Source: Cryptosporangium arvum DSM 44712 (GTDB lineage: Bacteria; Actinomycetota; Actinomycetes; Mycobacteriales; Cryptosporangiaceae). From it: a stretch of 64,000 bases of DNA. Below are positions 845-19,263 of the stretch, piece by piece. The first letter of the stretch is position 1; each line of letters begins with the position of its first letter. The position numbers and the translations under genes are program-made. The notes beneath the pieces are model-generated. The model was not told where the DNA came from, ran no database searches, and saw only the letters and a program-made list of their open reading frames with translations. The DNA lies in assembly GCF_000585375.1 (NCBI RefSeq), contig NZ_KK073874.1:6354894-6418893 (forward strand). Reading direction: 5' to 3'.

Positions 845-851
845 GTTGGGC

Positions 852-2426: not shown

Positions 2427-2456
2427 CTAGCGCTAGACATTCATAGAACTATCAAT
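2427..2456. promoter_or_regulatory. Palindromic operator region before the ArsR-like gene
   Basis: A perfect palindrome CTAGCGCTAG (2427-2436) is followed by ATAGAACTAT (2443-2452), which overlaps AACTATCAAT (2447-2456). On the gene's own strand the latter reads ATTGATAGTT, the same ten bases found before the CoA-transferase operon. The site is just upstream of the regulator gene, so autoregulation is plausible. Confidence 0.5.
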
Positions 2457-2468
2457 ATACGCCTTCGG

Positions 2469-3260: not shown

Positions 3261-3289
3261 GGCAGCCACCTTAACCGTCGGTGGACAGC

Positions 3290-4729: not shown

Positions 4730-4754
4730 CAGCGCGACCCGCAATCAAAGCGTC

Positions 4755-4769
4755 GATAGTTATGCAATC
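4755..4769. promoter_or_regulatory. TTGATAGTT-like motif in a divergent promoter region
   Basis: GATAGTTATGCAATC reproduces the GATAGTT core seen before the ArsR-like gene and the CoA-transferase operon. It lies between the divergent aldehyde dehydrogenase and 3-hydroxyacyl-CoA dehydrogenase genes, in an AT-rich stretch that also holds TATAGATACATAG (4829-4841). Confidence 0.4.
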
Positions 4770-4877
4770 ACCTAACGATAACGGACCCGCTGGACACCTG
4801 CCGCTTGTCCGGCCCCCGCCCCCTCCGGTATAGATACATAGACAACCTTGAAACTGGACTGGCGTGGAGGAACGCGT

Positions 4878-5738
4878 GTGCAGATCAAGCGGGTAGCCGT
4901 GGTCGGCTGCGGGACGATGGGCGGGGGCGTCGCGCAGGTCGCGGCTCAGCGCGGTTACGAGGTGGTCGTCGTCGAGAAGGACGCGGCGTCCGCCGAGGCC
5001 GGTCAGCAGCGCATCGCCGCCGGTCTCGACCGCCGGCTCGACCGCGGCCGCATCACCGCCGACGACAGGCGCCGCACCCTCGACCGGCTGCGCTTCGGCA
5101 CCGCCATCGACGCGATCACCGAGGCCGACCTCGTGGTCGAGGCCGTCTACGAGGACGTCGAGCTCAAGAAGAGCCTGCTCGCCCGGATCGACACGATCGT
5201 CGGCCCGGAGACGCTGATCGGCTCCAACACCTCGACGATCCCGCTGGTGGTCCTGGCCGGCGCGACGCGGCGCCCGGAGGCGATCGTCGGGCTGCACTTC
5301 TTCAACCCGGTGCCGGTGATGAAGCTGGTCGAGGTCATCAGGACCCCGATCTCGCTCCCGGCCAACGTCGAAAGCTTCGTCGCGTTCGCGAGAGACCTCG
5401 GCAAGACGCCTGTCGTCATCAACGACGTGCCGGGCTTCGTCGGCAACCTGCTCGTCGTCCCGTTCCTGCTCGACGCGGTCCGCGCGTTCGAACGCGGGGT
5501 CGCGCCGATGGAGTCGATCGACGAGGTGCTGCAACTCGGCTTCAACCACCGGATGGGCCCGTTCCGGCTCGCCGACCTGATCGGCCTCGACATCGTCCAC
5601 GACATGGCCGCCTCGATGTACGAGGAGTACAAGGATCCGAGGTACTTCCCGTCCCCGTTGCTGAAGCAGTACGTCCGGCTCGGCTGGCTGGGTCAGAAGA
5701 CCGGCCGCGGGTTCTACACCTACGACGGGGGCCGGTGA
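4878..5738 (+). CDS. 3-hydroxyacyl-CoA dehydrogenase (NAD-dependent)
   Basis: The 286-residue protein has a Rossmann domain starting with VVGCGTMGGGVAQ and the catalytic region GLHFFNPVPVMKLVEVI, with His140 and Glu152. A C-terminal helical domain follows (DVPGFVGNLL and a GRGFYTY end). Size and layout match 3-hydroxybutyryl-CoA dehydrogenases. It would oxidise the product of the MaoC or crotonase hydratases to a 3-ketoacyl-CoA for the DUF35-thiolase. GTG at 4878 is preferred because GGAGG lies seven bases upstream; a TTG at 4848 would add ten unconserved residues. Confidence 0.9.
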   Translation: MQIKRVAVVGCGTMGGGVAQVAAQRGYEVVVVEKDAASAEAGQQRIAAGLDRRLDRGRITADDRRRTLDRLRFGTAIDAITEADLVVEAVYEDVELKKSLLARIDTIVGPETLIGSNTSTIPLVVLAGATRRPEAIVGLHFFNPVPVMKLVEVIRTPISLPANVESFVAFARDLGKTPVVINDVPGFVGNLLVVPFLLDAVRAFERGVAPMESIDEVLQLGFNHRMGPFRLADLIGLDIVHDMAASMYEEYKDPRYFPSPLLKQYVRLGWLGQKTGRGFYTYDGGR

Positions 5739-5811
5739 TGGCGAAGACGCCGCTGCCCGTCCGGTCGACGGTCATCACCTGGTCATCGCACCTCTGAGCC
5801 AAGGACGTCCC

Positions 5812-6759
5812 ATGCGACGAGTACCGAAGAAGACCGGTGACTACGGCATCGGCATCATGATCCACACGATCCACATGACCGACGACGTCAAGAAGCTCAA
5901 CGACTTCTACCGCGACGTCTTCGGGGCACGGCTCTACCTGGGCGTGGACGAGCCCACCTATCTGCCGCCGGAGGACCGGTGGGCGAGCCTGATGATGGTC
6001 TCGGACCTGTGCGTCGAGACGATGGCCCCGAACCTGCCGGTCGACGCCACCAAGCCGGTCGGCAAGTTCTACTCGAAGTTCGGCCGCCATCTGCACTCGG
6101 TCGGTTACAAGGTCGACGACCCGGCCGGGCTGGCCAACTTCATGATCGAGCGGGGCATCTACATCGGTCGGCCGGGCGGCGGCAAGGTCGAGACGATGGA
6201 GCCGGGCGTGCACTACTTCTTCCCCAGCCCGCGGGACATGTTCGGCCTGATGGCCGAGATGTGCGTGATGGACATGCCCGGCGATCCGCGCCTGCTGCCC
6301 GGCTGGTCGGACCAGCAACGCGCCTGGGAGACCGATCACCCGCTGACGATCCGCCGGGTCGCGCACGTGATGCTCGGCGTCAAGGACGTGCGTGCCGCGA
6401 CCGAGTCGTACGTCAACCGGGTGCAAGCGATCCCCCTCCACCACGGCGTCGACGAGGTGACGCGGGCGACGTTCCAGATCGTGCAGCTCGGCGACTCGCT
6501 GCTCAAGCTGGTCCAGCCACTGGACGACTCGTCGGATCTGGGCCGTCACGTCGCGAAATACGGCAACATGATCTACGCCGTCACGTTCCGGGTCGCGGAC
6601 CTCGACTCGGCCGAACGCTGGCTGGCCCGGAAGAGCATCCGCACCCGTCGGCCGACCCCCACCACCGTCGCCGCCGACCCGGCCGACACCTGGGGCGCGC
6701 CCTACTTCTTCACCACGGAGCCCATCCCCGGCGACCCGTTCGAAGAACTGAACGACTAG
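5812..6759 (+). CDS. Double VOC (glyoxalase/dioxygenase-fold) protein
   Basis: The 315-residue protein contains two VOC modules. The first spans about residues 14-155 (MIHTIHMTDDVKKLNDFYRD to MFGLMAEMC), the second about 180-310 (IRRVAHVMLGVKDVRAATES to PYFFTTEP). Possible metal ligands are histidines in the first beta strand and in GVHYFF, plus Glu in MAEM. The family includes epimerases, glyoxalases and extradiol dioxygenases, and the sequence does not decide between them. An AAGGA site precedes the ATG. It lies 73 bases after the dehydrogenase and 10 bases before the next small gene, so all three may be cotranscribed. Confidence 0.75.
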   Translation: MRRVPKKTGDYGIGIMIHTIHMTDDVKKLNDFYRDVFGARLYLGVDEPTYLPPEDRWASLMMVSDLCVETMAPNLPVDATKPVGKFYSKFGRHLHSVGYKVDDPAGLANFMIERGIYIGRPGGGKVETMEPGVHYFFPSPRDMFGLMAEMCVMDMPGDPRLLPGWSDQQRAWETDHPLTIRRVAHVMLGVKDVRAATESYVNRVQAIPLHHGVDEVTRATFQIVQLGDSLLKLVQPLDDSSDLGRHVAKYGNMIYAVTFRVADLDSAERWLARKSIRTRRPTPTTVAADPADTWGAPYFFTTEPIPGDPFEELND

Positions 6760-6769
6760 GAGAACTCCG

Positions 6770-7081
6770 ATGCCCACCTACACCGTCGGACAGCGTCTGC
6801 GCAGCGCTGTCTCCAGCGTCGAGGCGATCGTCGTCAAGGTCCCGGAGGGGGACGTGACGATCTCCTGTGCCGGGGCGGCGATGCTGCGTCCGGACGAAGC
6901 GGCCGACGGCGCGCTCCCATCGGCCGACCCGGCGCAGCGGCACACGCTGCTGGGAAAGCGCTACCTGGACGCCGACAGCCGGCTGGAGATGCTGTGCGTG
7001 GCGGCCGGGCCCGGCGAGCTCGCGGTCGACGGCCGCACGCTGACGATCAAGACCGCGCAGCCGCTGCCGGCGTCGGACTGA
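6770..7081 (+). CDS. Small conserved-looking hypothetical protein (103 aa)
   Basis: I do not recognise a named family. The protein begins with a beta-rich section (YTVGQRLRSAVSSVEAIVVKVP, with a Cys in VTISCAGAAM) and ends with GELAVDGRTLTIKTAQPLPASD. There are no signal peptide or membrane segments. It has a good AGGAG site and follows the VOC gene by 10 bases, so it is probably its operon partner. Its predicted small beta-barrel character could suit a cofactor- or substrate-binding accessory protein, but that is a guess. Confidence 0.7.
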   Translation: MPTYTVGQRLRSAVSSVEAIVVKVPEGDVTISCAGAAMLRPDEAADGALPSADPAQRHTLLGKRYLDADSRLEMLCVAAGPGELAVDGRTLTIKTAQPLPASD

Positions 7082-7096
7082 CACCGGTGTCCGGTG
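7082..7096. terminator. Short hairpin between convergent genes
   Basis: CACCGG and CCGGTG pair around TGT. The overlapping GACACCGGTGTC (7080-7091) is a perfect 12-base palindrome. It lies in the 24-base gap between two convergent transcription units, so a small shared terminator is plausible; the stem is short. Confidence 0.35.
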
Positions 7097-7105
7097 CCGG
7101 GGGAG

Positions 7106-8299
7106 CTACCGGACCACGCCGCCGATCAGCTCCTGCATGAGCGAGGTGATCGTTCCGCGGTGCGCGCCCGCGGCGACCTGGCCACGCAGCCTCGGCAGGA
7201 AACGCGGAGCGCCGAAGGCCGCGACACCCACGACGGTGTCGCCGGCGAAGTAGGCGGCCACGGTGCCGCGCACCGGCCCCCCGGCCAGGCCCTCCCCGGT
7301 GAGCGGGAGGACGTTGTCGGCCAGGTCCGGCCGCCCGACGAGCTGGATCTTCAGCCCGAACTGGTCGGACCAGACGTACGGCACCGACGGGGGCGGCCGC
7401 TCCTGGCCGAGGAGGTCACGCGCGACGACCGCGGCCTGGTCGACGGTGGCCGTCCAGTGCTCGGTGCGGCAGCGGGCACCACGCACGTCGTCCCACCAGG
7501 CGGCGACGTCACCGAGCGCCCAGGTGTTCGGGGCGCCCTCGACCCGGCCGGTGCGGTCGCAGGGGACGCCGTCGGTGTCCAGGCCCAGCCAGCCGACGTC
7601 GGGCGTCGCGCCGATGCCCACCAGCACGACGTCGGCGCTCAGCCGGGTGGAGTCGGCCAGCTCCACGGTGTGCGCGTCGGCGAATCGGCTCAGCCGGGTG
7701 CCGCAACGCAGGTCGACGCCGGCTTCGGTGAACAGCCGACCGGTCAGCGCACCGAGCTCCGGCCCGAGCGCGTGCGCGGCGGTCGTCGGCATCGCCTCCA
7801 GCACGGTGACGTCCACGCCGCGCTGCCGGGCCGCGTGCGCCACCTCCGCGCCGACGAACCCGCCCCCGACGACCAGCAGCGACCGCGATTCGCCCAGGGC
7901 GTCGCGCAGCGCGGTGGCGTCGTCGAGCGTGCGCAGGGTCCGGACACCGTCCGGCTGGCCGGGGATCGTCCGGGCCCGCACACCGGTCGCGAGGACGACG
8001 GCGTCACCGGCGACCACCGATCCGTCCTCGAGTTCGACGGTGGTGTCGTGCAACCCGATCGCGGCGGCGCCGAAACGGTAGGCGACCCCCAGCTCGTCCA
8101 GGGCGGGCTTGTCGCGCAGGATCACCCGGTCGGGGTCCCAGACGCCGGACAGCACCTGCTTGGAGAGCGGCGGCCGGTCGTAGGGCGGGTGCTCCTCGGC
8201 ACCGATCAACGTGATCGGCCCCCGGTGCCCGTTGGCGCGCAACTGCTCCACGACCCGGACGCCACCGAGACCGGCGCCGACGACAACGACGTGCTCCAT
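7106..8299 (-). CDS. FAD-dependent ferredoxin reductase
   Basis: This 397-residue pyridine-nucleotide-disulfide-type oxidoreductase has an FAD dinucleotide motif (VVVGAGLGGVRVVE) and an NAD(P)H motif near 142 (LLVVGGGFVGAEVA). It also has the family marker PYDRPPLSK and the FAD-binding segment NTWALGDVAAWWD. It would pass electrons from NAD(P)H to the ferredoxin encoded three genes upstream, which feeds the P450. Its ATG lies one base past the thiolase stop, and GGAAGGA sits inside the thiolase end. It is the last gene of the ten-gene operon. Confidence 0.9.
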   Translation of the reverse strand: MEHVVVVGAGLGGVRVVEQLRANGHRGPITLIGAEEHPPYDRPPLSKQVLSGVWDPDRVILRDKPALDELGVAYRFGAAAIGLHDTTVELEDGSVVAGDAVVLATGVRARTIPGQPDGVRTLRTLDDATALRDALGESRSLLVVGGGFVGAEVAHAARQRGVDVTVLEAMPTTAAHALGPELGALTGRLFTEAGVDLRCGTRLSRFADAHTVELADSTRLSADVVLVGIGATPDVGWLGLDTDGVPCDRTGRVEGAPNTWALGDVAAWWDDVRGARCRTEHWTATVDQAAVVARDLLGQERPPPSVPYVWSDQFGLKIQLVGRPDLADNVLPLTGEGLAGGPVRGTVAAYFAGDTVVGVAAFGAPRFLPRLRGQVAAGAHRGTITSLMQELIGGVVR

Positions 8300-8300
8300 G

Positions 8301-9938
8301 TCAGTCCTTCCGGAGCAGCAGCACGCCGCTCGGGGTCAGGCCACCGCTGCTCACCACGGCGGTCCGGGCGCCGGCGACCTGACGCTCCCCCGCGTCGCCG
8401 CGCAGCTGCACGATCGCCTCCTGCAGCAGGCCCATGCCGTGGGTGCGCCCGTGCGAGAGCTGGCCCCCGTGGGTGTTGAGCGGGAGCACGCCGTCGCGCG
8501 CGATGTTCTTGCCGCCGTCGAGGAAGTCCTTGGCCTCGCCGATCCCGCAGAACCCGAGGGCCTCCAACCAGGACAGGCAGTTGAACGTGAACCCGTCGTA
8601 GAGCTGGGCGACGTCGACGTCGTCCGGGCGCAGCGAGGTGCGGGTCCAGAGGTGCGCGGCCGGGCCGAGCACCTGCGGTTCGTGGGTGGACGTGCTCTGG
8701 TCCCACTCGACGCGTTCGAGCAGCTGGGTGCCGACGGCCTCGACGCGCACCGGCGGCCGGCGCAGGTCGGCCGCGGTGCCGGCGGCGGACACGACCACCG
8801 CGATCGCCGCGTCCACCGGCACGTCGCAGTCGTAGAGCCCGAACGGCGTCGTGATCAGCCGGGCGCCCAGGTAGTCGTCCATGTCCATCGGGGCGCGGTA
8901 GACCGCGGTGGGGTTGAGGGCGGCGTTCGCGCGCTGGTTGAGCGCGATCCAGCCGAGCGTCTCCCGGGTGGTGCCGTACCTCCGGAAGTGGGTCTGCGCG
9001 TTCATCGCCAGCCCGTGCGCGGCCGACGTGGCGCCGAACGGTACCGACCAGCCGCTGTCGCCGGGCACGCGGCCACCCATCGGGGGGAGCTCGCCGCGCT
9101 TGGTCATCTCGTCGTGCGTCGACTGCCAGATCGTCCGGAAACAGAGCACGTGACGGGCCAGCCCGGCCGAGACCGCGAGCATCGCGGCGATCACCGAACC
9201 ACCCGGGCCGAAGGTCTCGGCGCCGCCGTTGTACCAGGTCGGCCGGATCCGGAGCGCGGCCTCCAGCGCGGCGACGCCACCCTCGCCGAAACCGCCGGCC
9301 GGGCCGCCGCCGGGGTAGGACGAGAGACCGTCGACGTCATCGAAGGTCAGGCCGGCGTCGGCGACCGCGGCCTCGCACGCCTGCACGGTGAGCACGAGCG
9401 GGTCGACACGCAGCCGCCGGCCGAGGTCCGAGGCCCCGACGCCGCTGAGCACCACGTCGTCCTCGAACTTGCGGGTGGTGAGCATCGGCCGGACCCTCGC
9501 CCGGATCTCCGCGGGGCCCTCCTCGTCCCCGGCGATCGGGCCGGTGCCGTCGATCGGGCGGAACAGCGGCAGCCAGACGTCCTCGACCTGCTCGAACTCC
9601 ACCCGCACCCGCTGTCCGGGTACGACGTCGTCGACGCCGACCAAGCGGGTGGTGAGCCGCACCCGCGGGTCCTCGTCCGGGGCGACCCGCGCGACGACGT
9701 ACGGCGGCGCCAGCCCGGGCAGCCCGAACCGGTGGTTCACCGTGGAGCTCACCACCGTCCCCTCGCCGGAGAGGTCCCGGATCTCCAGCGCGGTGCTCCG
9801 GCAGCGGGGACACGCGGGCTTCGGGGGGTGCACGAACCCCGCGCACGACGTGCACTGCTGCATCCGGAGCACGCCGTCGGCCCCGGCCCTCCAGTAGAAC
9901 TCGTTCAGGATCGTGACGTACGGCAGCGGCGCGGTCAT
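8301..9938 (-). CDS. DUF35 OB-fold/zinc-ribbon fused to an SCP2-type thiolase (probable acyl-CoA aldolase or thiolase)
   Basis: The 545-residue protein joins two modules. Residues 1-150 are a DUF35 module with a rubredoxin-like zinc ribbon (Cys29, Cys32, Cys43, Cys46) and an OB fold. From about 160 to the end it is an SCP2/lipid-transfer-type thiolase with VDGLSSYPGG, AQLYDGF (447-450) and NTHGGQLSHGR (488-498). The usual N-terminal nucleophile Cys position reads TFGPGG and has no Cys. Loss of that Cys, conserved Tyr and partnership with DUF35 are features of Ltp2-ChsH2 retro-aldolases in steroid side-chain degradation, where the modules are separate proteins. A C-C cleaving aldolase is inferred. 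Confidence 0.85.
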   Translation of the reverse strand: MTAPLPYVTILNEFYWRAGADGVLRMQQCTSCAGFVHPPKPACPRCRSTALEIRDLSGEGTVVSSTVNHRFGLPGLAPPYVVARVAPDEDPRVRLTTRLVGVDDVVPGQRVRVEFEQVEDVWLPLFRPIDGTGPIAGDEEGPAEIRARVRPMLTTRKFEDDVVLSGVGASDLGRRLRVDPLVLTVQACEAAVADAGLTFDDVDGLSSYPGGGPAGGFGEGGVAALEAALRIRPTWYNGGAETFGPGGSVIAAMLAVSAGLARHVLCFRTIWQSTHDEMTKRGELPPMGGRVPGDSGWSVPFGATSAAHGLAMNAQTHFRRYGTTRETLGWIALNQRANAALNPTAVYRAPMDMDDYLGARLITTPFGLYDCDVPVDAAIAVVVSAAGTAADLRRPPVRVEAVGTQLLERVEWDQSTSTHEPQVLGPAAHLWTRTSLRPDDVDVAQLYDGFTFNCLSWLEALGFCGIGEAKDFLDGGKNIARDGVLPLNTHGGQLSHGRTHGMGLLQEAIVQLRGDAGERQVAGARTAVVSSGGLTPSGVLLLRKD

Positions 9939-9989
9939 GCGGATTCCGTGACCGGCAGGGCGACCACGACCGTCATGGCTTCTTCTCCT

Positions 9990-11342
9990 TCAGAGCTGTG
10001 CGCTGGACGGGCGGACGGTGACCGGCTCGGCGAGACGCTGCTCGTCGACGATGCGCTGCATCCGCTCGATCGTCTCGTCGACGCCGGCCCCGAGCCGCGG
10101 GCCCGGGGTGAACGTGGCCGGCAGGTGTTTCATGCCGTTGATGACGCCGGTCGAGTCGTAGTGCACGGCGCCGTCCCGGTCGCACACGTAGTCCGGCATG
10201 CGGTCGAGCACGTGACGCAGCATCGTCTTGAACGTCGCCCTGGCCACGTTCGACCCGATGCACCGGTGGATGCCCAGCCCGAAGCTGGCGTGCCGATTGC
10301 CCTTGCGGTCCAGGTGGATCGTGTTGGGGTCCTCGAACACGGTCTCGTCCCGGTTGGCCATCGCCCAGGAGAGCCAGAGACGCTGGCCCTCCTTGAACTC
10401 GGTGCCGTTGATCTCGGCGTCGGTCTGGACGGTCCGGCCGTCACCGACCGCCGGGGTGTAGAACCGCAGGAACTCCTCGGTGGCCGAGTCACGCAGCGTG
10501 TCCCACTCGCGGTCGAGCCGGGCGCGCTCCGCCGGGTGCTCGGACAGCCACTCCAGGGAGTGCGCGGTCAGCGCGGTCGTGGTGTCGAACCCACCCCCGA
10601 TGATCAGACCGGCGGCCCCCAGGACGTCCTTGTCGGTGGGCGCGGCCCCGTTGATCTCCGCGCGGATCAGCCCGTCGATCAACCCCGGGCGGGGCTCGAC
10701 GCGGATCTTCGCGATCCACGACTCGGTGTGCGCCCGGGCCCGCATCATCTGCTGGAAGACGCGCATGATGTCCGGCGAGTCCGGCCGGGTGTAGACGCTG
10801 GCGTGCGAGGGCTCGCAGTGCACGGTCCAGGCCGCGAGCGGCATGCCGAGCATCGCCATCGTCAGCACGGCCGGGACGACGTTCGCCAGGTCGTCGACGA
10901 AGTCGATCCGGCCGGACTCGATCCGCTCGTCCAGCGCGGCGCGGGTGATCTCGTCGATGACCGGCTGCCAGCGCTTGACCGCCGCCGGGGACAGGTACGG
11001 GTTGAGCGCCTGCCGGTAGTGCCGCTGCTCGGGTGGGTCCATCTCCAGGAACCCGCCGATCGGGGAACCCGGACGACGCTGCGGCGGCGGGATGCTGATC
11101 CCCCAGTACCCGCGCTTGACCTCGTCCGGGTCGTTCTCGTTCGACAGCACGTCCGCCCGGCGCGCGATGTCGAACAGCTCTTTGTTCCCCGACACGAACC
11201 AGTAGCCGCCGTGCGCCTCGTTCCAGGCCACCGGGCACTTGCCGTGGTACTCGGTGGCGAGTTCCTGGAAGTCCTCCCGGTAGCGGTCGGAGTGCCGGTT
11301 GAGGTTGATCCTGGCAATCGCGCGCGCGTCGTCGATCGTCAT
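9990..11342 (-). CDS. Cytochrome P450 monooxygenase
   Basis: The 450-residue protein has all P450 landmarks: the I-helix GGGFDTTTAL (249-258), ExxR at Glu290-Arg293, and the heme loop FGLGIHRCIG with the axial Cys361. There is no membrane anchor, as in soluble bacterial class I enzymes. ATG at 11342 is chosen because GGAGGG lies just upstream and the P450 fold begins soon after; the frame is open further but Arg-rich. The ferredoxin gene is 11 bases upstream and the reductase two genes downstream, so the complete redox chain is encoded. It probably hydroxylates the entry substrate; which one is unknown. Confidence 0.93.
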   Translation of the reverse strand: MTIDDARAIARINLNRHSDRYREDFQELATEYHGKCPVAWNEAHGGYWFVSGNKELFDIARRADVLSNENDPDEVKRGYWGISIPPPQRRPGSPIGGFLEMDPPEQRHYRQALNPYLSPAAVKRWQPVIDEITRAALDERIESGRIDFVDDLANVVPAVLTMAMLGMPLAAWTVHCEPSHASVYTRPDSPDIMRVFQQMMRARAHTESWIAKIRVEPRPGLIDGLIRAEINGAAPTDKDVLGAAGLIIGGGFDTTTALTAHSLEWLSEHPAERARLDREWDTLRDSATEEFLRFYTPAVGDGRTVQTDAEINGTEFKEGQRLWLSWAMANRDETVFEDPNTIHLDRKGNRHASFGLGIHRCIGSNVARATFKTMLRHVLDRMPDYVCDRDGAVHYDSTGVINGMKHLPATFTPGPRLGAGVDETIERMQRIVDEQRLAEPVTVRPSSAQL

Positions 11343-11353
11343 GTGCCCTCCGC

Positions 11354-11545
11354 TCAGAACCGGATGATGGCCTGCTCGGGGCAGGTACGCGCGGCTTCCT
11401 TCGCGAGCGTCTCCGCCTCGGCGGGTACGTCTTCGCCGACGGCGTGCGCGTGGCCGTCGATGTCGGACAGTTCGAACAGGTTGGGCGCGGTCATCGCGCA
11501 CAGGGTGTGCCCCTGGCAGATGTCCGGATCGACACGAACCTTCAT
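11354..11545 (-). CDS. Ferredoxin, 3Fe-4S type, P450 partner
   Basis: A 63-residue ferredoxin with CQGHTLC (Cys10 to Cys16) and a distal Cys55-Pro, giving the CxxHxxC...CP pattern. The His in place of the second cluster cysteine is typical of P450-adjacent ferredoxins in mycobacteria, which bind a 3Fe-4S cluster. It would carry electrons from the FAD reductase at 7106 to the P450 immediately downstream. ATG at 11545 is the obvious start. Confidence 0.9.
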   Translation of the reverse strand: MKVRVDPDICQGHTLCAMTAPNLFELSDIDGHAHAVGEDVPAEAETLAKEAARTCPEQAIIRF

Positions 11546-11559
11546 GGGCTCAGCGCCTC

Positions 11560-12432
11560 TCAGACGTGGTAGTCCTGGAACTTCAGGTACGAACCGGCGT
11601 CGACGCGCATCTGCATGCCGGTGACGTAACGCGCCTCCTCGGAGGCCAGGTAGAGCACCATGTTGCTGATGTCGCGCGGCTCGACGTAGGGAACCGGCAT
11701 CAGCTGCTGGACATAGAACGCCGGCTCCGCGTCCTCGCGGGTCGGGTTCTCCAGGTCGGGGCGGAACGCCCGGTACATCGGCGGGCTCTGCAGCATCGGG
11801 GTGTTGCAGTTGGTCGGGTGCACGGCGTTGGCGCGGATGCCGCGCGGGCCGAGGTTGCGGGCCAGCTCGTGGACGAACTCGCACACCGCCTTCTTGGCGT
11901 ACTGGTACGACGCGCCGCCCGGGTCCTGGCCGACGCTCCCCGCCGCGCCGAGGCCGGCCCCGGTCATCGCGACCGCGGCCGACGCCGTGGCGATGATCGA
12001 CGCGCCCTCCTCGAGATGCGGTAACGAGGCGTGGACCGCGTTGATGACGCCGAGCAGGAGCGTGTCGACGCCGTCCATCCAGGCCTGGACGGCGGGTTCG
12101 CCCTTCATCGGGGCGATGCCGGCCTGCGCGACGACGACGTCGAGGTGACCGAGCTGGGCGATGCCCTGCTCGACCGCCGCGATCAGCTGCGCGCGCTCCC
12201 GCACGTCGGCCTCCACCGCGACGATGCGCCGGTCGAGCGCCTCGACGAGGGCGACGGTCTCCTTGAGGTCGTCGGAGGACGACATCGGGTAGTCCACCGT
12301 CGCGAAGTCCCGGCAGATGTCGACCGCGATGATGTCGGCGCCCTCTTCGGCCAGGCGGACCGCGTGACTGCGCCCCTGCCCGCGCCCCGCGCCGGTGACG
12401 AACGCGACCTTGCCCTCTACTCGACCCGCCAT
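11560..12432 (-). CDS. Mycofactocin-coupled-type SDR family oxidoreductase
   Basis: This 290-residue short-chain dehydrogenase has TGAGRGQG (13-20), the YxxxK pair Tyr176/Lys180 and an active-site Ser near 151. After beta-strand 2 it carries an insertion (VDICRDFATVDYPMSSSDDL) of the kind seen in SDRs that hold NAD tightly and pass electrons to mycofactocin. It would oxidise the alcohol made by the P450 to an aldehyde or ketone. AAAGGAG lies seven bases before the ATG, inside the preceding aldehyde dehydrogenase gene, whose stop is one base away. Mycofactocin genes are not in this window. Confidence 0.85.
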   Translation of the reverse strand: MAGRVEGKVAFVTGAGRGQGRSHAVRLAEEGADIIAVDICRDFATVDYPMSSSDDLKETVALVEALDRRIVAVEADVRERAQLIAAVEQGIAQLGHLDVVVAQAGIAPMKGEPAVQAWMDGVDTLLLGVINAVHASLPHLEEGASIIATASAAVAMTGAGLGAAGSVGQDPGGASYQYAKKAVCEFVHELARNLGPRGIRANAVHPTNCNTPMLQSPPMYRAFRPDLENPTREDAEPAFYVQQLMPVPYVEPRDISNMVLYLASEEARYVTGMQMRVDAGSYLKFQDYHV

Positions 12433-12433
12433 C

Positions 12434-13909
12434 TCAAGACTCCTTTGTCCGTGCCGTCGGCCAGGCGATGGTCTTCGTCTCGAGGAAGTCCTCGAGGCCC
12501 TCGGTGCCCCACTCGCGGCCGAGGCCGCTCTGCTTGTAGCCGCCGAACGGCGACTGGACGTCGAACCACATGCCGCCGTTGACGCCGACCGTGCCGGTAC
12601 GCATCCGGCGGGCCAGGCCCATCGCCCGGTCGAAGTCCGCGCTGTGCACGGCACCGGAGAGACCGAAGATCGTGTTCTCGGCGATGCGCAGCGCGTCCTC
12701 GTCGTCGTCGAACGGCAGCACCACGATCGCCGGGCCGAAGATCTCGTCCTGCGCCACCGACGACTTCGGGTCGATGTCGGTGATCAGCGTCGGCTCGACG
12801 TAGTAGCCCCGCTCGAACCGGTCCTGCGGCTTACCGCCGAGCACGACCCGGCCCTCCCGCGCGGCCGCCCGGTAGTAGCTGAGCACCTTGTCGCGCTGGG
12901 CGGCGTTGATGACCGGCCCCATGACGTTGCCGGGGTCCGCCGGGTCGCCCCACGGCATCTGCCTCATCGCGGCCTCGAGGATCCCGACCGCCTCGTCGAG
13001 CTTGTGCCGCGGCACGAGCAGCCTGGTCAGCGCCGCGCAGCCCTGACCGGCGTGCACGCAGACGCCCAGGGCCAGGCCGGGCACGATCTGGGTGAGGTCG
13101 GCGTCGTCGAGCACGACCGCGGCGGACTTCCCGCCCAGTTCCAGCGTGACCCGCTTGACCGTCTCGGACGCCGCCCCCATCACCGTGCGGCCGGTGCCGG
13201 TCGAGCCGGTGAGCGTCACGTGGTCCACGTCGGGGTGGGTCGCGAGGATCTGTGCCACGGCGTTGTCCGCGGTGGACACCACGTTGAGCACCCCGGCCGG
13301 CAGGTCGGTGTGCCCGGCGGCGATCGCCCCGAGCGCGAGCGCGCTGAACGGCGTGTCCGGCGCGGGTTTGAGCACCACCGTGCAGCCGGCCGCGAGCGCC
13401 GCCGCGGACTTCGCGATGTTCAGGTAGAACGGGTAGTTCCACGGCGTGATCGCCCCGACCACCCCGGCGGCCTCGCGTCGCACCACGCGGCTGGTGGCGG
13501 TGCCGTAGAACTCCTTCTCCGGCAGCGGACGCTCGAACTCGTAGCTGCCGAGCAGGTCGACGTAGTGGTCGATGAAACCGATCGGGCCCTCGAGCTGGAT
13601 CGCCCCGGTCAGCGAGACCGGGCTGCCGGCCTCGGCGACGACGATGCTCCGCAGCTCCTCGACGTTCGCGCGCAGGGCGTCGCGCAGCTGGGTCAGGCAG
13701 TGGCGGCGGAACTCGACGTCGGTCGACCAGGTGCCGGTGTCGAACGCCCGGCGGGCGGCGCCGACGGCCTTCTCGACGTCGGTCGCGTCGGCGTCGGGTG
13801 CGGCGCCGATCACCTCCTCGGTGGCCGGGTTGACGTTGTCGAACGTGCGGCCGCTCCCGGCCGCGACGAGTTCGCCGTCGACGAGCAGGCGTTCACCAAG
13901 CGATGTCAT
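12434..13909 (-). CDS. NAD-dependent aldehyde dehydrogenase
   Basis: A full-length 491-residue ALDH: ITPWNYPFY (near 155), cofactor Lys181, base Glu258 in LELGGKSAA, and nucleophile Cys291 in GQGCAALTR. It would oxidise the aldehyde produced by the neighbouring SDR to a carboxylic acid ready for CoA activation. Its ATG overlaps the stop of the upstream dehydrogenase by four bases, implying translational coupling. It belongs to a different ALDH subgroup from the enzyme at 3290-4729, so the two probably act on different aldehydes. Confidence 0.92.
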   Translation of the reverse strand: MTSLGERLLVDGELVAAGSGRTFDNVNPATEEVIGAAPDADATDVEKAVGAARRAFDTGTWSTDVEFRRHCLTQLRDALRANVEELRSIVVAEAGSPVSLTGAIQLEGPIGFIDHYVDLLGSYEFERPLPEKEFYGTATSRVVRREAAGVVGAITPWNYPFYLNIAKSAAALAAGCTVVLKPAPDTPFSALALGAIAAGHTDLPAGVLNVVSTADNAVAQILATHPDVDHVTLTGSTGTGRTVMGAASETVKRVTLELGGKSAAVVLDDADLTQIVPGLALGVCVHAGQGCAALTRLLVPRHKLDEAVGILEAAMRQMPWGDPADPGNVMGPVINAAQRDKVLSYYRAAAREGRVVLGGKPQDRFERGYYVEPTLITDIDPKSSVAQDEIFGPAIVVLPFDDDEDALRIAENTIFGLSGAVHSADFDRAMGLARRMRTGTVGVNGGMWFDVQSPFGGYKQSGLGREWGTEGLEDFLETKTIAWPTARTKES

Positions 13910-14718
13910 GACTGCGCTCCTGGGAGATCGAGCTCGGGGATCACGTCGGCCAGCGCGCGGTGCGCGCCGGCGAGCGCGCCGAGGTCACCGCCGAGGTCGG
14001 CCACGACCCGGCGCACGACCGCGACGTCCTTGCCGAGGAACTCACCGGCGGCGCGGGCGAAGCCTCCGACCGAGCCGGCGCGGGCCACACCGGCCAGCGC
14101 GAAACTGCTCGCGCTGCCCTGGGGCAGCGCGTCGAGCAGTGCTTTCTCATCGACGCCGAGCTGGGCGCCGAGGTCGACGGCGGCGGCGAGCAGGCCGATG
14201 TTCGCCGCGAACAGCGCGTTGTTGATCAGCTTGACGCGCTGCCCGTTGCCGCGCGGACCGACGTGCAGGATCGGGTCGCCGTACGCCCGCAGCGCAGGGC
14301 GGACCGCGCCGACCGCGCCGTCCGCGCCGCCGACCAGCAGGGTGACGGTGCCCGCGGCGACGTCGTGGGGGCCGCCGCTGACCGGCGCGTCCACCACCTC
14401 GATGCCGTGTGCGGCCAGCAGATCGGCGGTCGCCGGACTACCCGTGGTGTGCACCACCAGCACCGCGCCGGGGCGCATCGCCCCGATCAGTGCCGGCCCC
14501 ACCTCGCGGACCTGCTCGTCGGTGCGCACACCGACGAGCACCGCTTCGGCGTCGGCGGCCACCTCGGTCAGCGTGCCGACCGGGGTGGCGCCGTCGCCGT
14601 CCAGCGCGGCGTGCGCCGCGCCGGACCGTGCGAGCACCCGGACGTGGTGTCCGGCCCCGACCAGCCGCCGCACCATCGGACGCCCGATCCGGCCGGCGCC
14701 GACGAACCCGAGTCTCAT
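13906..14718 (-). CDS. 3-hydroxyisobutyrate dehydrogenase-like NAD(P) oxidoreductase, copy 1
   Basis: This 270-residue beta-hydroxyacid dehydrogenase has an N-terminal GFVGAGRIGRPM dinucleotide motif, the substrate-binding signature DAPVSGGPHDVAAGT near 120 and the catalytic Lys in RVKLINNAL. The C-terminal helical domain is complete. It would oxidise a beta-hydroxy acid, or reduce a semialdehyde. The gene at 15863-16675 has the same length and layout and flanks the amidohydrolase on the other side. Start and stop codons overlap both neighbours by four bases. Confidence 0.88.
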   Translation of the reverse strand: MRLGFVGAGRIGRPMVRRLVGAGHHVRVLARSGAAHAALDGDGATPVGTLTEVAADAEAVLVGVRTDEQVREVGPALIGAMRPGAVLVVHTTGSPATADLLAAHGIEVVDAPVSGGPHDVAAGTVTLLVGGADGAVGAVRPALRAYGDPILHVGPRGNGQRVKLINNALFAANIGLLAAAVDLGAQLGVDEKALLDALPQGSASSFALAGVARAGSVGGFARAAGEFLGKDVAVVRRVVADLGGDLGALAGAHRALADVIPELDLPGAQS

Positions 14719-15842
14719 CCGAAGTGGAAGAGGCGTCGGGCGTTGCCCTCGACGATCAGGCGCGCCTCGTCGTCGGGCACGTTCGCGAGCTGTTCACCGA
14801 GCACCTTGCGGGTGTGCGGCCAGTTGCAGTCCGAGTGCGGGTAGTCGCTCTCGAACAGGATCTGGTCGACGCCGATCGAGTGACGCAGATCGATGCCGTT
14901 CTGATCGGAGATGAAGGCCCCGTAGATGTGGTCCTTGAACATCTCCGACGGCTTGCGCTCCTGGTCGATGTCGCACCAGAACTTGTGCCGGCCCCAGGAG
15001 TAGTCCGCGCGCTCGAGGATGTACGGGATCCAGCCGATCCCGCCCTCGGAGAGCACGAACTTCAGGTTCGGGAACTTGTAGAACACCGGCGAGATCAGCA
15101 GGTCGACGCAGGCCATCATCGAGTTGATGCCGAACAAGGCGATCGTGACGAACATGTCGGCGTCCTGGGCGACGCCGCTGGGCGCGCCCCCGGATCCGAA
15201 GTGCACCGAGAGCGGCAGGTCGCGCTCCTCGGCGGCCCGCAGGATCGGGTCCCAGTGGTCGGTGTGGTAGCTCGGCAGACCGACGCGGTGCGGCGCTTCG
15301 AGGAAGCTCACCGACCTCGCGCCCTTGGCCGCGGTGCGCTCGATCTCCGTGACCGAGGCCTGGACGTCCCAGAACGGGATCATCACCAGCGGGATCTGCC
15401 GATCGGGCGCGTAGGCGCACCACTCGTCGAGGATGAAGTCGTTGTAGGCCCGGATGCACTCCGCGGCGAGCTCCTTGTCGTCGCTGGCGTAGAACGTGCT
15501 GCCGGCGAAGCCACCCATGTTCGGGAAGCAGAGCTGGGCCCAGACGCCCTCGACGTCCATGTCCTTGATGCGTTCGGAGATGTCGTAGCAGCCCGGACGC
15601 ATGTCGTCGTAGCTGCGCGGATCCATCCCGAACTCGCGGGGGTGCTTGCCGGCGACCGCGTTCAGCGCGAAGTTGCCGGACGGCTTGCCGTTGAAGATCC
15701 AGGTGTCGTTGCCGTCGGGCAACTTCTCGATCCGCGGTGCGACGTCCTGGTACTTCGCGGGCATGCGGTCGAGCCAGACGCGAGGGTGCTCGATCACGTG
15801 GTCGTCGACCGAGATGATCTTGGCGTCGTCGGGGAGCGGCAT
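14715..15842 (-). CDS. Amidohydrolase-2 family metal-dependent hydrolase or decarboxylase
   Basis: The 375-residue TIM-barrel protein starts with ISVDDHVIEHP, the family's N-terminal metal-site strand. It continues with LSVHFGSGG (a His ligand), SEGGIGWIPY and, near the end, ILFESDYPHSDCNWP with the conserved metal-site Asp. Relatives include 2-amino-3-carboxymuconate-semialdehyde decarboxylase-type enzymes and hydrolases of cyclic ketone or lactone intermediates. It could open a ring or remove a carboxyl in the pathway; the reaction cannot be fixed from sequence. It overlaps the downstream dehydrogenase by four bases and lies 20 bases after the upstream one. Confidence 0.85.
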   Translation of the reverse strand: MPLPDDAKIISVDDHVIEHPRVWLDRMPAKYQDVAPRIEKLPDGNDTWIFNGKPSGNFALNAVAGKHPREFGMDPRSYDDMRPGCYDISERIKDMDVEGVWAQLCFPNMGGFAGSTFYASDDKELAAECIRAYNDFILDEWCAYAPDRQIPLVMIPFWDVQASVTEIERTAAKGARSVSFLEAPHRVGLPSYHTDHWDPILRAAEERDLPLSVHFGSGGAPSGVAQDADMFVTIALFGINSMMACVDLLISPVFYKFPNLKFVLSEGGIGWIPYILERADYSWGRHKFWCDIDQERKPSEMFKDHIYGAFISDQNGIDLRHSIGVDQILFESDYPHSDCNWPHTRKVLGEQLANVPDDEARLIVEGNARRLFHFG

Positions 15843-15862
15843 CGCTCTTCCTCCAGATCCAG

Positions 15863-16675
15863 CTAGCGCGGGTGCTTCATCGACTCGAGCGCGGAGTCGG
15901 CGGCGGGGAGCACCGCGCCGGCGTCCACTCCGGCCGCGGCGGCGAGATCGACCGCGAGCCGAACGTCTTTCCGCAGGAGGGGCCCGGCGACCTCGGCCAT
16001 GCGGACGGCCGAGTACGGCTCGCCGGAGAGCAGCAGCGACGCGGCGAAGCTGTTGCCGCTGCCGGCGGCGAAGACCTGGTTCAGCGAGCCGAGGTCGACG
16101 CCCAGTTCGCGGCCCAGCGCGTAAGCGGCCTCGGCCACGCCGAGGTTCGCGGTGAGCAGCAGGTTGTTGAGGATCTTCGCGGCCTGACCGGCGCCGACCG
16201 GCCCGACGTACAGGAACGGGTTGGCGTAGGTGTCGAGGACCGGGCGGATCCTCTCGATGACGTCGGCGTCGCCGCCGGCCATCACGAGCAGCCGCCGCTC
16301 GGCGGCCGCCTGGCCACCGCCGCTCACCGGGGCGTCGACGACCGCGACGCCGTGGTCGGCGGCGGCGTCCGCGAGCGTCCGGCAGGTGTCGGGGTGCACG
16401 GTGCTGTGCACGACGATCACGGCGCCCGCGGCGAGGGTGCCGTGAATCTGCCCGCCGATCTCACGGACGTCGTCGTCGTCGCGGACGCACAGGCAGACGA
16501 CGTCGCTGGCCTCGGCCAACGCGGCCGGCGAGTCGGCCACGGCGGCCGCGGTGCCGGCGTACGGCTCGAGCGACTCCGGGCGCCGTGCCCACAGCGTGGT
16601 CGGGAAACCCTCGTCGACGATCCGCCGGGCCATCGGGCCGCCCTGGCTGCCGAGACCGATGAACCCGACCCTCAC
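15863..16675 (-). CDS. 3-hydroxyisobutyrate dehydrogenase-like NAD(P) oxidoreductase, copy 2
   Basis: A second 270-residue beta-hydroxyacid dehydrogenase, with GFIGLGSQGGPM at the N-terminus, DAPVSGGGQAAAERR near 120 and the catalytic Lys in AAKILNNLLL. It is clearly related to copy 1, but the Rossmann loop and C-terminal substrate region differ, so substrate or direction may differ. The GTG start at 16675 overlaps the CoA-transferase stop as GTGA, indicating translational coupling; no other start fits the fold better. Confidence 0.87.
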   Translation of the reverse strand: MRVGFIGLGSQGGPMARRIVDEGFPTTLWARRPESLEPYAGTAAAVADSPAALAEASDVVCLCVRDDDDVREIGGQIHGTLAAGAVIVVHSTVHPDTCRTLADAAADHGVAVVDAPVSGGGQAAAERRLLVMAGGDADVIERIRPVLDTYANPFLYVGPVGAGQAAKILNNLLLTANLGVAEAAYALGRELGVDLGSLNQVFAAGSGNSFAASLLLSGEPYSAVRMAEVAGPLLRKDVRLAVDLAAAAGVDAGAVLPAADSALESMKHPR

Positions 16676-17919
16676 GTGACCGCTCCGGCGATCTTGAACC
16701 CGAGCGACTTCTCGTCGGAGAAGCCGAGCTCGGCGAGGATCTCGTCGGTGTGCTCGGCGAACTGCGGTGCCCGGGTGAGCACCGCCGGTTTGCGGTCGAA
16801 CTGGACCGGGTTCGCGACCAGCTTCTGCGTGGTGCCCTCGACGTCGACGACCTCGGCGACCTGGCCGGTGGCCCGCAGCTGCGGGTCGTTGCCGAGCTCG
16901 AAGGTGTCCTGCACCAGCGCCCACTGGCCTTCCATCGTCGCCGCGGCGGCGAACCACTCGTCCTTGGTGAGCCCGGCCATGATCGCGGTGACCTCCGCGA
17001 CGGCCTCCAGCCCGTTGGCCATCAGCTTCCCGGTGGTGTCGAAACGCTCGTCGACGACCAGGTCCGGGCGGCCGACGGCCCGGCAGAAGTCCGGCCAGTA
17101 CCGCCCCGGCTGCAGCATGCACAGGTTGATCCAGCGCCCGTCGGACGTCCGGTAGTTGCCGGTCAGCGGGTTGTTCGGCTGTCCGCCCGCGCGGGGTGCG
17201 AACTTCGGCAGCGCACGCCCGGCCTGCAACGCCAGGTTGACGTTGAGCTGGATCGCCCACGCCCCGACGCCCAGCAGCGACACGTCGACGACCGACGGCT
17301 CCCCCGTGGTGGCCCGCGCGAACAGTGCGGCCGCGATGCCCCCGGCGATCGTCATGCCGCCGATGTTGTCGCCGTACGCCCCGCCCGGCGGCGGTGTCGG
17401 TGCGACCGCGCCCTCGGGGGTGAGCGCGTCGGCCGTGCCCGCGCGGGCCCAGTACGCGGTGCCGTCGTAGCCGCCGCTCTCGGCCTCCGGGCCGGCGTGC
17501 CCGAACGCCGACCCGACGACGAAGATGACGTCGGGGTTGACCGCCCGGACGTCGTCGAGGTCGATGCCGAGCTTGCGACGCGCGGCCGGCAGGAAGTTCG
17601 TGAGGAAGACGTCGCTGCGCCGGATCAGCTCGTGCAGCACCTCGGTGGCTTCCGGCTTCTCCAGCGAGAGCCCGAGGCTGCGCTTGCCCCGGTTGGGGCC
17701 CTCCATGATCGGCGCGAACGTCGACCCCTGGGAGATGACGTCGTGGCCCAACGCCTTGACCAGCCCGCGCTGGGCGTCACCCCGCTCGGCGTGCTCGATC
17801 TTGACGACGTCGGCGCCCCAGTCCGCCAGCACCGCACCGGCCGACGGCACGTAGGTGAACTGCGCGACCTCGAGAACCCGAACGCCTTCCATGGGCCTGA
17901 ACACGTGACGCACCCTCAT
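16672..17919 (-). CDS. CaiB/BaiF family (class III) CoA-transferase
   Basis: A 415-residue class III CoA-transferase. It opens with MEGVRVLEVAQF and VLADWGADVVKIE and has NRGKRSLGLSL and the conserved ESGGYDGTAYWARAG segment, with the catalytic Asp expected just upstream of or within this part. A GNYRTSDGRWINL motif follows. It would move CoA from a donor thioester to the carboxylic acid made by the P450/SDR/ALDH steps. It is the first gene of the ten-gene operon. ATG at 17919 is favoured because homology begins within ten residues; the frame stays open upstream to 18105 but that part is Pro/Arg-rich and unconserved. Confidence 0.9.
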   Translation of the reverse strand: MRVRHVFRPMEGVRVLEVAQFTYVPSAGAVLADWGADVVKIEHAERGDAQRGLVKALGHDVISQGSTFAPIMEGPNRGKRSLGLSLEKPEATEVLHELIRRSDVFLTNFLPAARRKLGIDLDDVRAVNPDVIFVVGSAFGHAGPEAESGGYDGTAYWARAGTADALTPEGAVAPTPPPGGAYGDNIGGMTIAGGIAAALFARATTGEPSVVDVSLLGVGAWAIQLNVNLALQAGRALPKFAPRAGGQPNNPLTGNYRTSDGRWINLCMLQPGRYWPDFCRAVGRPDLVVDERFDTTGKLMANGLEAVAEVTAIMAGLTKDEWFAAAATMEGQWALVQDTFELGNDPQLRATGQVAEVVDVEGTTQKLVANPVQFDRKPAVLTRAPQFAEHTDEILAELGFSDEKSLGFKIAGAVT

Positions 17920-18023
17920 CTCTTGGCCTGAAGGTGGAGGAGAGCCGAGGGGCGGCGACCAGCGGACCCGCGCTCCGGGCGGCCTCGCTGCGTTCCTCCA
18001 CATCGAAGAACCGCGATCATCGT

Positions 18024-18043
18024 ATAGTTCTAAAACTATCAAT
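18024..18043. promoter_or_regulatory. Palindromic operator before the CoA-transferase operon
   Basis: ATAGTT and AACTAT form a perfect inverted repeat around CTAA (18024-18039). The right arm continues into AACTATCAAT, identical over ten bases to the site before the ArsR-like gene at 2447-2456. It lies about 105 bases upstream of the operon's first start codon, a position suited to control by that regulator. Confidence 0.6.
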
Positions 18044-18093
18044 CTCAAGAGCCGGGAACAGGTGGGCGGCTGAGAATTTGGTTGAACGATGCA

Positions 18094-18117
18094 CGCTCCT
18101 AGCACGTGCTAGGAGCG
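18094..18117. promoter_or_regulatory. Perfect 24-base palindrome
   Basis: Each 12-base half (CGCTCCTAGCAC and its complement) matches exactly, with CACGTG at the centre and no spacer. It has no T-run and no gene end nearby, so it fits an operator better than a terminator. It lies 151 bases before the LacI gene and 175 bases before the CoA-transferase start. Confidence 0.65.
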
Positions 18118-18267
18118 CACCCTACGCGTGGCCCGGGTCACACGGAAGGCGCGATCCGCCTCGCGCGGGAAAACGCGGACGTCATCGGCCCAGGTGGGCG
18201 CGCGTGATGGCCGGAACGCACTACCTGCCGGACGCCCGGGTCACCGAGTTGTCGGTAGTTTGATCAG

Positions 18268-19263
18268 ATGGCCACCGCCCGCCGATCCCGCGTGACCAGC
18301 ACGGACGTCGCGAAGGCCTCGGGCTTTTCCCGGCAGTTGGTCGGTTTCGTCCTGAACAACACGCCGGGCCAGACGATCCCCGAGACCACGCGCGCGAAGG
18401 TGCTCCGGGCCGCGACCGAGCTCGGTTACGTCCCCCACGGCCCGGCGCAGGCCCTGCGCCGGGGCCGCGGGCGGACCGTGCTGCTCGCGATCCCCGACCT
18501 CCCGCAGGGCGGAACGATGGGCGACGTCATCGAGACGGCGGCGGACGAGCTGGCGGCCGAAGGGTTCACGCTCGTGACCTATCTCCTCGGTGCCGAGCAG
18601 CGCTCGCCGCGCGAGGTGGCCGCCGCGCTCACCCCGGTCGCGGTGGCCGGGATGCTGCCGTTCAGCGCGGCCGACGTCGCGACGTTCACCGCGAGCGGCG
18701 CGGCCGTGGTGCTGCCGCAGCCCGGCACCGGCTTCGGCTCGAACCTCGACGAGTCGATGCGTCTGCTCGGCGAACTGCAGGTCGAGTACCTGGTGAGCCG
18801 GGGGCACCGGCGAATCGTGTTCGCGGCGCCGGACGACGCGCGCACGTCCGGCCTGGCGTCCGGTCGCTACGAGGGCGCGCGGGCGGCCGCCGAGCGTCTC
18901 GGGTTGCCCCGGTTGAAGCGCCACGTCGTGCCGACGTCGGGCGCGGAGGACTCGGTGCGGGTCTGGCGTTCGGGCCGCCATCCGATCACCGCCGTCGCCT
19001 GCCACGGCGACGAGACGGCGTTCGCCGTGCTGGCGGCCGCGCGCTCGGCCGGGATGCGGATCCCCGACGACCTCGCGGTGATGGGCGCCGACGAACTGCC
19101 GATCGCGCGGTACGCCGAGCCGCCGCTCACCACGGTCTCGGTGGACGGGCGCAGCGCGGGGATCCGGCTCGCCCGCACGCTCGTCGACCTGCTCGCCGAC
19201 CGCACCCCGCCGCCGTTCGACTACCACGACGGCATCACGGTGGTCCCCCGGGTCTCAGCCTGA
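18268..19263 (+). CDS. LacI-family transcriptional regulator
   Basis: This 331-residue protein has an N-terminal LacI HTH (TSTDVAKASGFSRQLVGFVLNN, then the hinge GYVPHGPAQAL). A periplasmic-binding-protein-like effector domain runs from about residue 65, ending in VMGADELPIARYAEPPLTTV. It should bind a palindromic operator and respond to a small ligand. The perfect palindrome at 18094-18117 is a natural candidate, though its CACGTG centre is not the usual LacI CG-centred form. No sugar genes are adjacent; the divergent catabolic operon is the most likely target. Confidence 0.9.
   Translation: MATARRSRVTSTDVAKASGFSRQLVGFVLNNTPGQTIPETTRAKVLRAATELGYVPHGPAQALRRGRGRTVLLAIPDLPQGGTMGDVIETAADELAAEGFTLVTYLLGAEQRSPREVAAALTPVAVAGMLPFSAADVATFTASGAAVVLPQPGTGFGSNLDESMRLLGELQVEYLVSRGHRRIVFAAPDDARTSGLASGRYEGARAAAERLGLPRLKRHVVPTSGAEDSVRVWRSGRHPITAVACHGDETAFAVLAAARSAGMRIPDDLAVMGADELPIARYAEPPLTTVSVDGRSAGIRLARTLVDLLADRTPPPFDYHDGITVVPRVSA

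Follow-up and report, generated by a model that had tools for sequence, protein, structure and literature searches.

Organization and conservation of a ten-gene operon in Cryptosporangium arvum

A stretch of 64,000 nucleotides from Cryptosporangium arvum DSM 44712 (contig NZ_KK073874.1, positions 6,354,894 to 6,418,893; called 'the window' below) was analysed with respect to a predicted catabolic operon. Ten genes were located on the minus strand of the window, running from the start of the coenzyme A (CoA)-transferase gene at 17919 to the stop of the ferredoxin reductase gene at 7106, within a single-contig genome of 9,195,993 bases. The gene order was CoAT-HIBD1-AMH-HIBD2-ALDH-SDR-FD-P450-D35T-FDR:

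16672-17919, minus strand: CoAT, CoA-transferase family III (PF02515, CoA_transf_3, 4e-77)
15863-16675, minus strand: HIBD1, beta-hydroxyacid dehydrogenase 1 (PF03446/PF14833, NAD_binding_2 and NAD_binding_11)
14715-15842, minus strand: AMH, amidohydrolase-fold protein, predicted dinuclear oxygenase (PF04909, Amidohydro_2; likeness to DitZ and PtmU3)
13906-14718, minus strand: HIBD2, beta-hydroxyacid dehydrogenase 2 (PF03446/PF14833)
12434-13909, minus strand: ALDH, aldehyde dehydrogenase (Aldedh; nearest model TIGR04284 (Rv0768), under its cut-off)
11560-12432, minus strand: SDR, mycofactocin-coupled short-chain dehydrogenase/reductase (TIGR03971, above its cut-off)
11354-11545, minus strand: FD, small ferredoxin (PF13459/PF13370, Fer4_15)
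9990-11342, minus strand: cytochrome P450 (PF00067)
8301-9938, minus strand: D35T, DUF35-thiolase fusion, predicted retro-aldolase (zf-ChsH2, OB_ChsH2_C, Thiolase_C_1)
7106-8299, minus strand: FDR, ferredoxin reductase (PF07992, Pyr_redox_2; PF14759)

Coordinates and Pfam families bore out the ten co-directional genes of the original prediction and the names given to all ten proteins (10/10), while HIBD1 scored under the cut-off of every NCBIfam model among the matches listed. The description of the genes as mostly overlapping was too strong: three of the nine junctions were 4-base overlaps, and the remaining six were gaps of 1, 1, 11, 14, 20 and 51 bases. In a hairpin scan of positions 6900-18400, the minus strand had no terminator-like site and the plus strand had one, against 1.9 on both strands in shuffled sequences, so that the scan had low power.

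All ten genes were present in three sister genomes of the genus (73 to 94% identity), where two tandem P450 genes were found (loci L039, L040 and L041) as against one in the window's genome, and where junctions were wider in two of the genomes (the widest, about 430 bases, separating P450 and D35T in L040). Nine genes occurred in the order CoAT-HIBD1-AMH-HIBD2-ALDH-SDR-FD-P450-D35T in two Blastococcus records (L071 and L072), preceded by two acyl-CoA dehydrogenase (ACAD) genes and a CoA ligase gene (ACAD1-ACAD2-CoA ligase) and followed by a second aldehyde dehydrogenase gene (ALDH2, directly after D35T) and a gene for a small conserved protein, DUFx. Since ten genes recur in three genomes of the genus and nine in two Blastococcus records, the gene order is no chance product. 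The original prediction had named a lack of co-occurrence elsewhere as one refutation; the genes were found together in the sister genomes and in Blastococcus, and AMH, D35T and P450 also in the survey of 249 genomes presented below. A second cluster in the window's own genome (L042, G000:C1:5634000-5653999) contained homologues of AMH (79%), DUFx (48%), D35T (63%), CoAT (48%), ALDH (62%), SDR (65%) and P450 (30-32%).

The DUF35-thiolase fusion protein

The nearest solved relative of D35T was the cholesterol aldolase Ltp2 (6ok1, E 6e-47). In PMC12329534, the catalytic residues are given as the Tyr of a YDHF motif together with Tyr344 in Ltp2, and as the Tyr and Cys of a YDCY motif in Sal. D35T shares the combination of DUF35 and thiolase-like fold, as well as the base Tyr, with the steroid side-chain aldolases Ltp2-ChsH2 and Sal-Shy, and its zinc finger (C-x2-C-x10-C-x2-C; C29, C32, C43 and C46; Pfam match to zf-ChsH2) is of the ChsH2 type, Shy having a Cys3His1 finger. 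It differs from both systems in being a single fused chain, in carrying the motif Y447-D-G-F instead of YDHF or YDCY, with Gly449 at the position of the catalytic Cys304 of Sal, and in having Arg498 where Ltp2 has Tyr344 and Sal has Gln352; it thus bears neither the Ltp2 nor the Sal signature. No cysteine was present between residues 189 and 265, which together with Gly449 placed the protein outside the SCP2-type thiolases, and a thiolytic role was dropped because the thiolase cysteines are missing. The fetched loci held 71 distinct relatives with a length of 330 amino acids or more, and the YDGF motif was found in 64 of them (37 fused and 27 unfused); the other seven comprised three with YDCF, YDSF or YDAF and four in which the motif search found nothing. 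These residues make D35T a probable retro-aldolase of a kind other than Ltp2 and Sal.

The amidohydrolase-fold protein

The nearest solved sequences to AMH were DitZ (8uyr, E 2e-73) and PtmU3 (6omp, E 5e-41), followed by SfbO-type and AibH proteins (about 1e-18 to 1e-20). The same two proteins were the best matches when the predicted structure (pLDDT 91) was searched with Foldseek (DitZ, E 1e-35, TM 0.92; PtmU3, E 3.5e-25, TM 0.82). All seven metal-site positions were present (D13, H15, H214, E266, D333, H336 and D338), these having been taken from PMC7782822 as six ligands and, in addition, the acid corresponding to AibH2 D342; the same paper describes the extra acid, here D338, as conserved only in binuclear members. 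In an alignment of 84 rows (4 of the 87 matches in those loci having been omitted by an identity and length filter), the seven positions were kept in 82 rows, the window included, and D338 in all 84. A wider set contained six partial rows without the first two positions, for which the extracted frame starts later, and one Massilia paralogue with Glu at D338. PtmU3 hydroxylates C-5 of a diterpenoid-CoA using O2, according to PMC10127204, and is termed a beta-hydroxylase in PMC7782822. Taken together, the residues and nearest relatives make AMH more likely an O2-using dinuclear oxygenase than a hydrolase. It resembles PtmU3, AibH2, SfbO and DitZ in fold and in the seven ligand positions, and a CoA ester, as for PtmU3, is its likely substrate; unlike them, it is encoded in a catabolic operon with a P450-type ferredoxin and reductase and without a Rieske protein, and its activity is a predicted one. 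At another locus (L051:3496-6148), close to a D35T relative, two PF04909 genes precede a gene for a Rieske ferredoxin, which is the arrangement of AibH1H2G.

Co-occurrence of AMH and D35T

Across 249 genomes of the order, homologues of D35T (E<=1e-60), AMH (E<=1e-90) and P450 (E<=1e-90) were detected in 38, 42 and 36 genomes, respectively, with all three in 34. AMH was present in every one of the 38 genomes with D35T, and all eight D35T genera were among the 11 AMH genera, of 68 genera in total; most of the 249 genomes belong to one genus, so that the genome counts overstate independence. Fused D35T was represented by 41 genes in 36 genomes, and AMH was encoded on the same contig for 36 of these genes (within 10 kb for 12, within 15 kb for 25 and within 50 kb for 35).

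When 80 AMH loci were compared with 40 control windows, a D35T relative (at least 28% identity) was found in 46 and 0, respectively, the 46 falling to 40 at 40% and 26 at 50% identity. Excesses were likewise observed for SDR (46 versus 2), ECH, an enoyl-CoA hydratase/isomerase (30 versus 2), CoAT (29 versus 1), ALDH (24 versus 1), FD (23 versus 0), DUFx (18 versus 0) and P450 (15 versus 0). No significant excess over the controls was seen for HIBD1, HIBD2, FDR, LacI, HBDH, VOC or ALDH2 (the last four described below), and the exact ten-gene set is therefore not a general rule. AMH and D35T were paired, at 36% or more, in 43 loci, with a distance of at most 1 kb in 7 and at most 3 kb in 10; in Streptomyces (L143) they lay about 11 kb apart. 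On two Rhodococcus plasmids, ABC transporter genes come after the run AMH-small ORF-D35T-CoAT, and the order in M. branderi was AMH-Gfo/Idh-DUF35-hydrolase-ALDH-CoAT-thiolase. In Massilia and Sphingomonas, a thiolase-like gene directly adjoined AMH, among further beta-oxidation genes. A gene of about 73-81 amino acids was found directly behind AMH at three loci (L140:7780-8016, L208:8708-8929 and L143:16143-16388), on the two Rhodococcus plasmids lying between AMH and D35T.

Oxidation and activation enzymes

The SDR scored 341.7 bits against the 300-bit cut-off of TIGR03971, in agreement with its prediction as mycofactocin-type, and its nearest solved chains are named carveol dehydrogenase. 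MftC was identified in the window's genome (661.3 bits, cut-off 265). ALDH reached 638.7 bits against the cut-off of 775 for TIGR04284 (Rv0768-type), and D253-T254-T255 and C361 of the P450 were unchanged across nine aligned rows. In the NCBIfam rows listed for 20 proteins, TIGR03971 and NF005875 were the only models passed, and no steroid equivalog model was among them, which fits the original statement that no gene here is specifically a steroid gene. The order P450, SDR, ALDH and CoAT follows from family knowledge and from the presence of MftC.

The operon head

Three features were found upstream of CoAT:

18268-19263, plus strand: LacI-family regulator, divergent from CoAT (PF00356/PF13377)
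18094-18117, no strand: 24-base perfect palindrome, candidate operator, between the LacI gene and CoAT
18018-18049, minus strand: 32-base promoter-like block, TTGAGA-18-TACGAT, between the LacI gene and CoAT

The promoter-like block contained a second palindrome (18024-18039) between its two hexamers and was identical across four genomes of the genus save for one base; it was the single promoter-like site in 6900-18400, against 0.3 in shuffled sequences, a match that is weak by itself. The core of the 24-base palindrome, CTAGCACGTGCTAG, occurred as a single exact copy per genome in all four, always at the operon head. One-mismatch copies were situated 120-135 bases away in two genomes, which have an extra SDR gene between LacI and CoAT or at that place, and one further such copy lay elsewhere in the window's genome. 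With up to one mismatch allowed, the core gave 1 to 2 matches per genome and strand, against 2 to 9 for a backward-read control; as the control exceeds the pattern, copy number is no evidence, and the evidence lies in the position of the core. Palindrome and LacI-type regulator together would offer a direct route to the natural inducer.

Flanking genes and the wider unit

The following genes were found between the start of the window and the operon:

753-1834 (753-1409 and 1421-1834), plus strand: MaoC-type hydratase gene pair (family matches, related loci)
1961-2440, minus strand: ArsR-type regulator, adjoining ECH here and likewise in L071 and L200 (Blastococcus) and L059 (Amycolatopsis)
2469-3269, minus strand: ECH, enoyl-CoA hydratase/isomerase, crotonase (PF00378)
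3290-4744, minus strand: ALDH2, second aldehyde dehydrogenase, SSADH-like (TIGR01780, 584 bits, under the cut-off of 646)
4848-5738, plus strand: HBDH, 3-hydroxyacyl-CoA dehydrogenase (NF005875, 322.3 versus 319 bits)
5812-6759, plus strand: two-domain VOC protein (homologue in Amycolatopsis L059)
6770-7081, plus strand: DUFx, conserved protein of 103 amino acids (18-row alignment)

The MaoC, crotonase and 'HAD' genes that had been placed next to the operon are thus there (753-1834, 2469-3269 and 4848-5738), 'HAD' being taken as 3-hydroxyacyl-CoA dehydrogenase. The claim that the ten genes hold every step did not stand: related loci add an ACAD pair, a CoA ligase, the MaoC pair, ECH, a second ALDH and DUFx. 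In Amycolatopsis acididurans (L059), the order ECH-ALDH2-DUFx-VOC-ACAD1-ACAD2-CoA ligase-CoAT-AMH-ALDH-SDR-P450-MAOC1-MAOC2 runs in one direction; in the window's genome, the flanking set is split over locus L196 and window positions 753-7081, on both strands, the ACAD pair being located just beyond the window edge. That the Blastococcus and Amycolatopsis loci and the window's genome carry the same flanking genes puts the size of the functional unit at about twenty genes, not ten. The nearest models to the ACAD pair were IpdE2 (146 of 450 bits) and PimC (147.5 of 623.85 bits), both scores being far under the cut-offs.

DUFx had no Pfam match at E<=0.001, and a fold search against the PDB at E<=0.001 gave no match. 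Its family (about 100 amino acids, C-terminal LP(A/S)SD) was present in 18 of the 80 AMH loci, in 17 of which the nearest mapped neighbour (AMH, ALDH2 or CoAT) was within about 0.9 kb; DUFx adjoins D35T in L042-L044.

Proposed pathway and alternative explanations

We interpret the operon as regulated and as serving the catabolism of an alicyclic or terpenoid-type compound, with beta-hydroxylation by AMH and retro-aldol cleavage by D35T, a reading to which we assign a probability of about 0.5. The P450, with its own ferredoxin and reductase, would oxidize a methyl group; SDR and ALDH would convert the alcohol to the acid, and CoAT the acid to its CoA ester. AMH, to which the original prediction gave no step, would then hydroxylate the beta-carbon of the acyl-CoA in an O2-dependent reaction, by analogy with PtmU3 on diterpenoid-CoA, and D35T would cleave the alpha-beta bond, an order that we infer from PtmU3 and Ltp2/Sal. 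ALDH2 may oxidize the released aldehyde, and beta-oxidation by the flanking enzymes (the two ACADs, the MaoC pair, ECH and HBDH) may complete the route. The scheme gives HIBD1 and HIBD2 no step. The originally proposed logic of hydroxylation, oxidation, activation and cleavage in one unit is supported, with AMH likelier to be an oxygenase than an amidohydrolase, and D35T an aldolase than a thiolase. Ring compounds are hinted at by KstD-like genes in the neighbourhood of two related loci (under cut-offs); ring opening would be in keeping with an ALDH2 that is SSADH-like and with ACADs that resemble IpdE2 and PimC, again all under cut-offs. A broader version, which we regard as unlikely, has AMH and D35T acting as a general O2-dependent bypass of beta-oxidation at a quaternary alpha-carbon, with opening of a gem-dimethyl ring in the present case. 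The quaternary carbon would block dehydrogenation, so that AMH would hydroxylate the beta-carbon and D35T break the bond, opening the ring once one methyl is a CoA ester; ALDH2 would turn the semialdehyde into a dicarboxylate for the two ACADs, the larger of which has a pimeloyl-CoA dehydrogenase model as its nearest.

Several observations weigh against beta-hydroxylation by AMH coupled to D35T. The two exceptional rows among the 84 were Blastococcus operon copies (E266Q in L071; H214N in L072, the same as L191), and a third Blastococcus genome (G240; L190 and L200) also had H214N. One metal ligand is thus lost, at two different positions, in the operon AMH of all three Blastococcus genomes, and these replacements, read from the sequences, are the main evidence against a uniform oxygenase role. 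Beyond DitZ and PtmU3, the predicted fold fails to separate oxygenases from PF04909 decarboxylases (TM 0.71-0.75 for SfbO/AibH versus 0.70-0.74 for ACMSD decarboxylases). The PDB title of DitZ names it only as manganese-substituted DitZ of Rhodococcus rhodochrous, and no Rieske ferredoxin is encoded among the ten operon genes. No D35T relative was found in 34 of the 80 AMH loci; D35T, HIBD, FD and FDR were not found within 10-kb flanks in Amycolatopsis L059, nor LacI in that stretch, no thiolase gene was listed within 20 kb of AMH in Sphingopyxis (L142), and MaoC and ECH genes directly precede AMH in Massilia.

By the conventional route, the beta-hydroxyl could also be made without AMH, through the ACAD and MaoC pairs of the conserved locus, and the idea that an operon lacking ACAD must rely on AMH was weakened by the ACAD pair near the window and in related loci. 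In a steroid-type side-chain removal, these pairs would install the hydroxyl and D35T would perform the retro-aldol step, AMH acting elsewhere, for example on a ring carbon. That both pairs are part of the conserved locus, that Ltp2 is the nearest solved relative of D35T, and that the KstD-like genes are found close to AMH relatives, in Amycolatopsis and on a plasmid of Streptomyces, make this possible, if doubtful; the NCBIfam rows speak against it, as do the two Rhodococcus plasmids, where no ACAD or hydratase is listed inside the AMH-D35T-CoAT run. On the BH4 plasmid, an enoyl-CoA hydratase and an ACAD are encoded 2 kb and 5 kb before AMH, respectively, the plasmid gene tables being incomplete. 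AMH as a true PF04909 hydrolase or decarboxylase, opening for instance a lactone or ring product, would agree with the ACMSD-type fold (TM up to 0.74) and with the ligand losses tolerated in Blastococcus; it was demoted because of the DitZ/PtmU3 match and appears improbable, the sequence being far nearer to these two than to ACMSD and the acid described as specific to binuclear members (PMC7782822) being present in all 84 rows. Terpenoid tailoring, for which PtmU3, itself biosynthetic, would be a precedent, is very improbable: a scan of 40 proteins encoded by the operon and its surroundings (a part of the window's ORFs) found no terpene synthase or prenyltransferase family, beta-oxidation genes lie on the operon's flanks, and the relatives on two plasmids stand before ABC transporter genes.

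Relation to known systems

The aib operon (2-aminoisobutyrate) of Rhodococcus wratislaviensis likewise encodes an oxygenase of the amidohydrolase fold alongside an ALDH and a 3-hydroxyisobutyrate-type dehydrogenase; it differs in its small amino-acid substrate and Rieske electron partner, and the excerpts describing it mention no CoA chemistry or aldolase. The three-component AibH1H2GF system has an adjacent Rieske ferredoxin, which has no counterpart among the window's ten genes. The cholesterol side-chain (igr-type) module has the same logic of P450, heteromeric ACAD, MaoC pair and DUF35-aldolase (in part after PMC12329534); the operon adds AMH, CoA-transferase, HIBDs and DUFx and does not pass steroid models. 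Sets of Rv0768-type ALDH and mycofactocin SDR are approached by the operon, with its SDR above TIGR03971 and its ALDH nearest to TIGR04284 and under cut-off. The Rv0768-Rv0771 region of M. tuberculosis was not adopted as a direct counterpart, ALDH being under cut-off.

Every enzyme belongs to a known superfamily. No description of the pathway, of this set of enzymes together, of the aldolase signature or of such an oxygenase in a catabolic operon was found in open-licence literature listings. If the interpretation is true, the common annotation 'amidohydrolase + thiolase' in actinobacteria masks an oxygenase-aldolase pair cleaving branched carbon skeletons, which would account for the passage of quaternary carbons in terpenoids by such bacteria and constitute a further class of C-C cleaving enzymes; further cases could be sought by looking for YDGF aldolases encoded close to PF04909 proteins that have all seven ligands. 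Elsewhere in the window, an AIPR-family gene (PF10592, 32011-33936) was located inside the 2-kb stretch of lowest G+C content (0.653).

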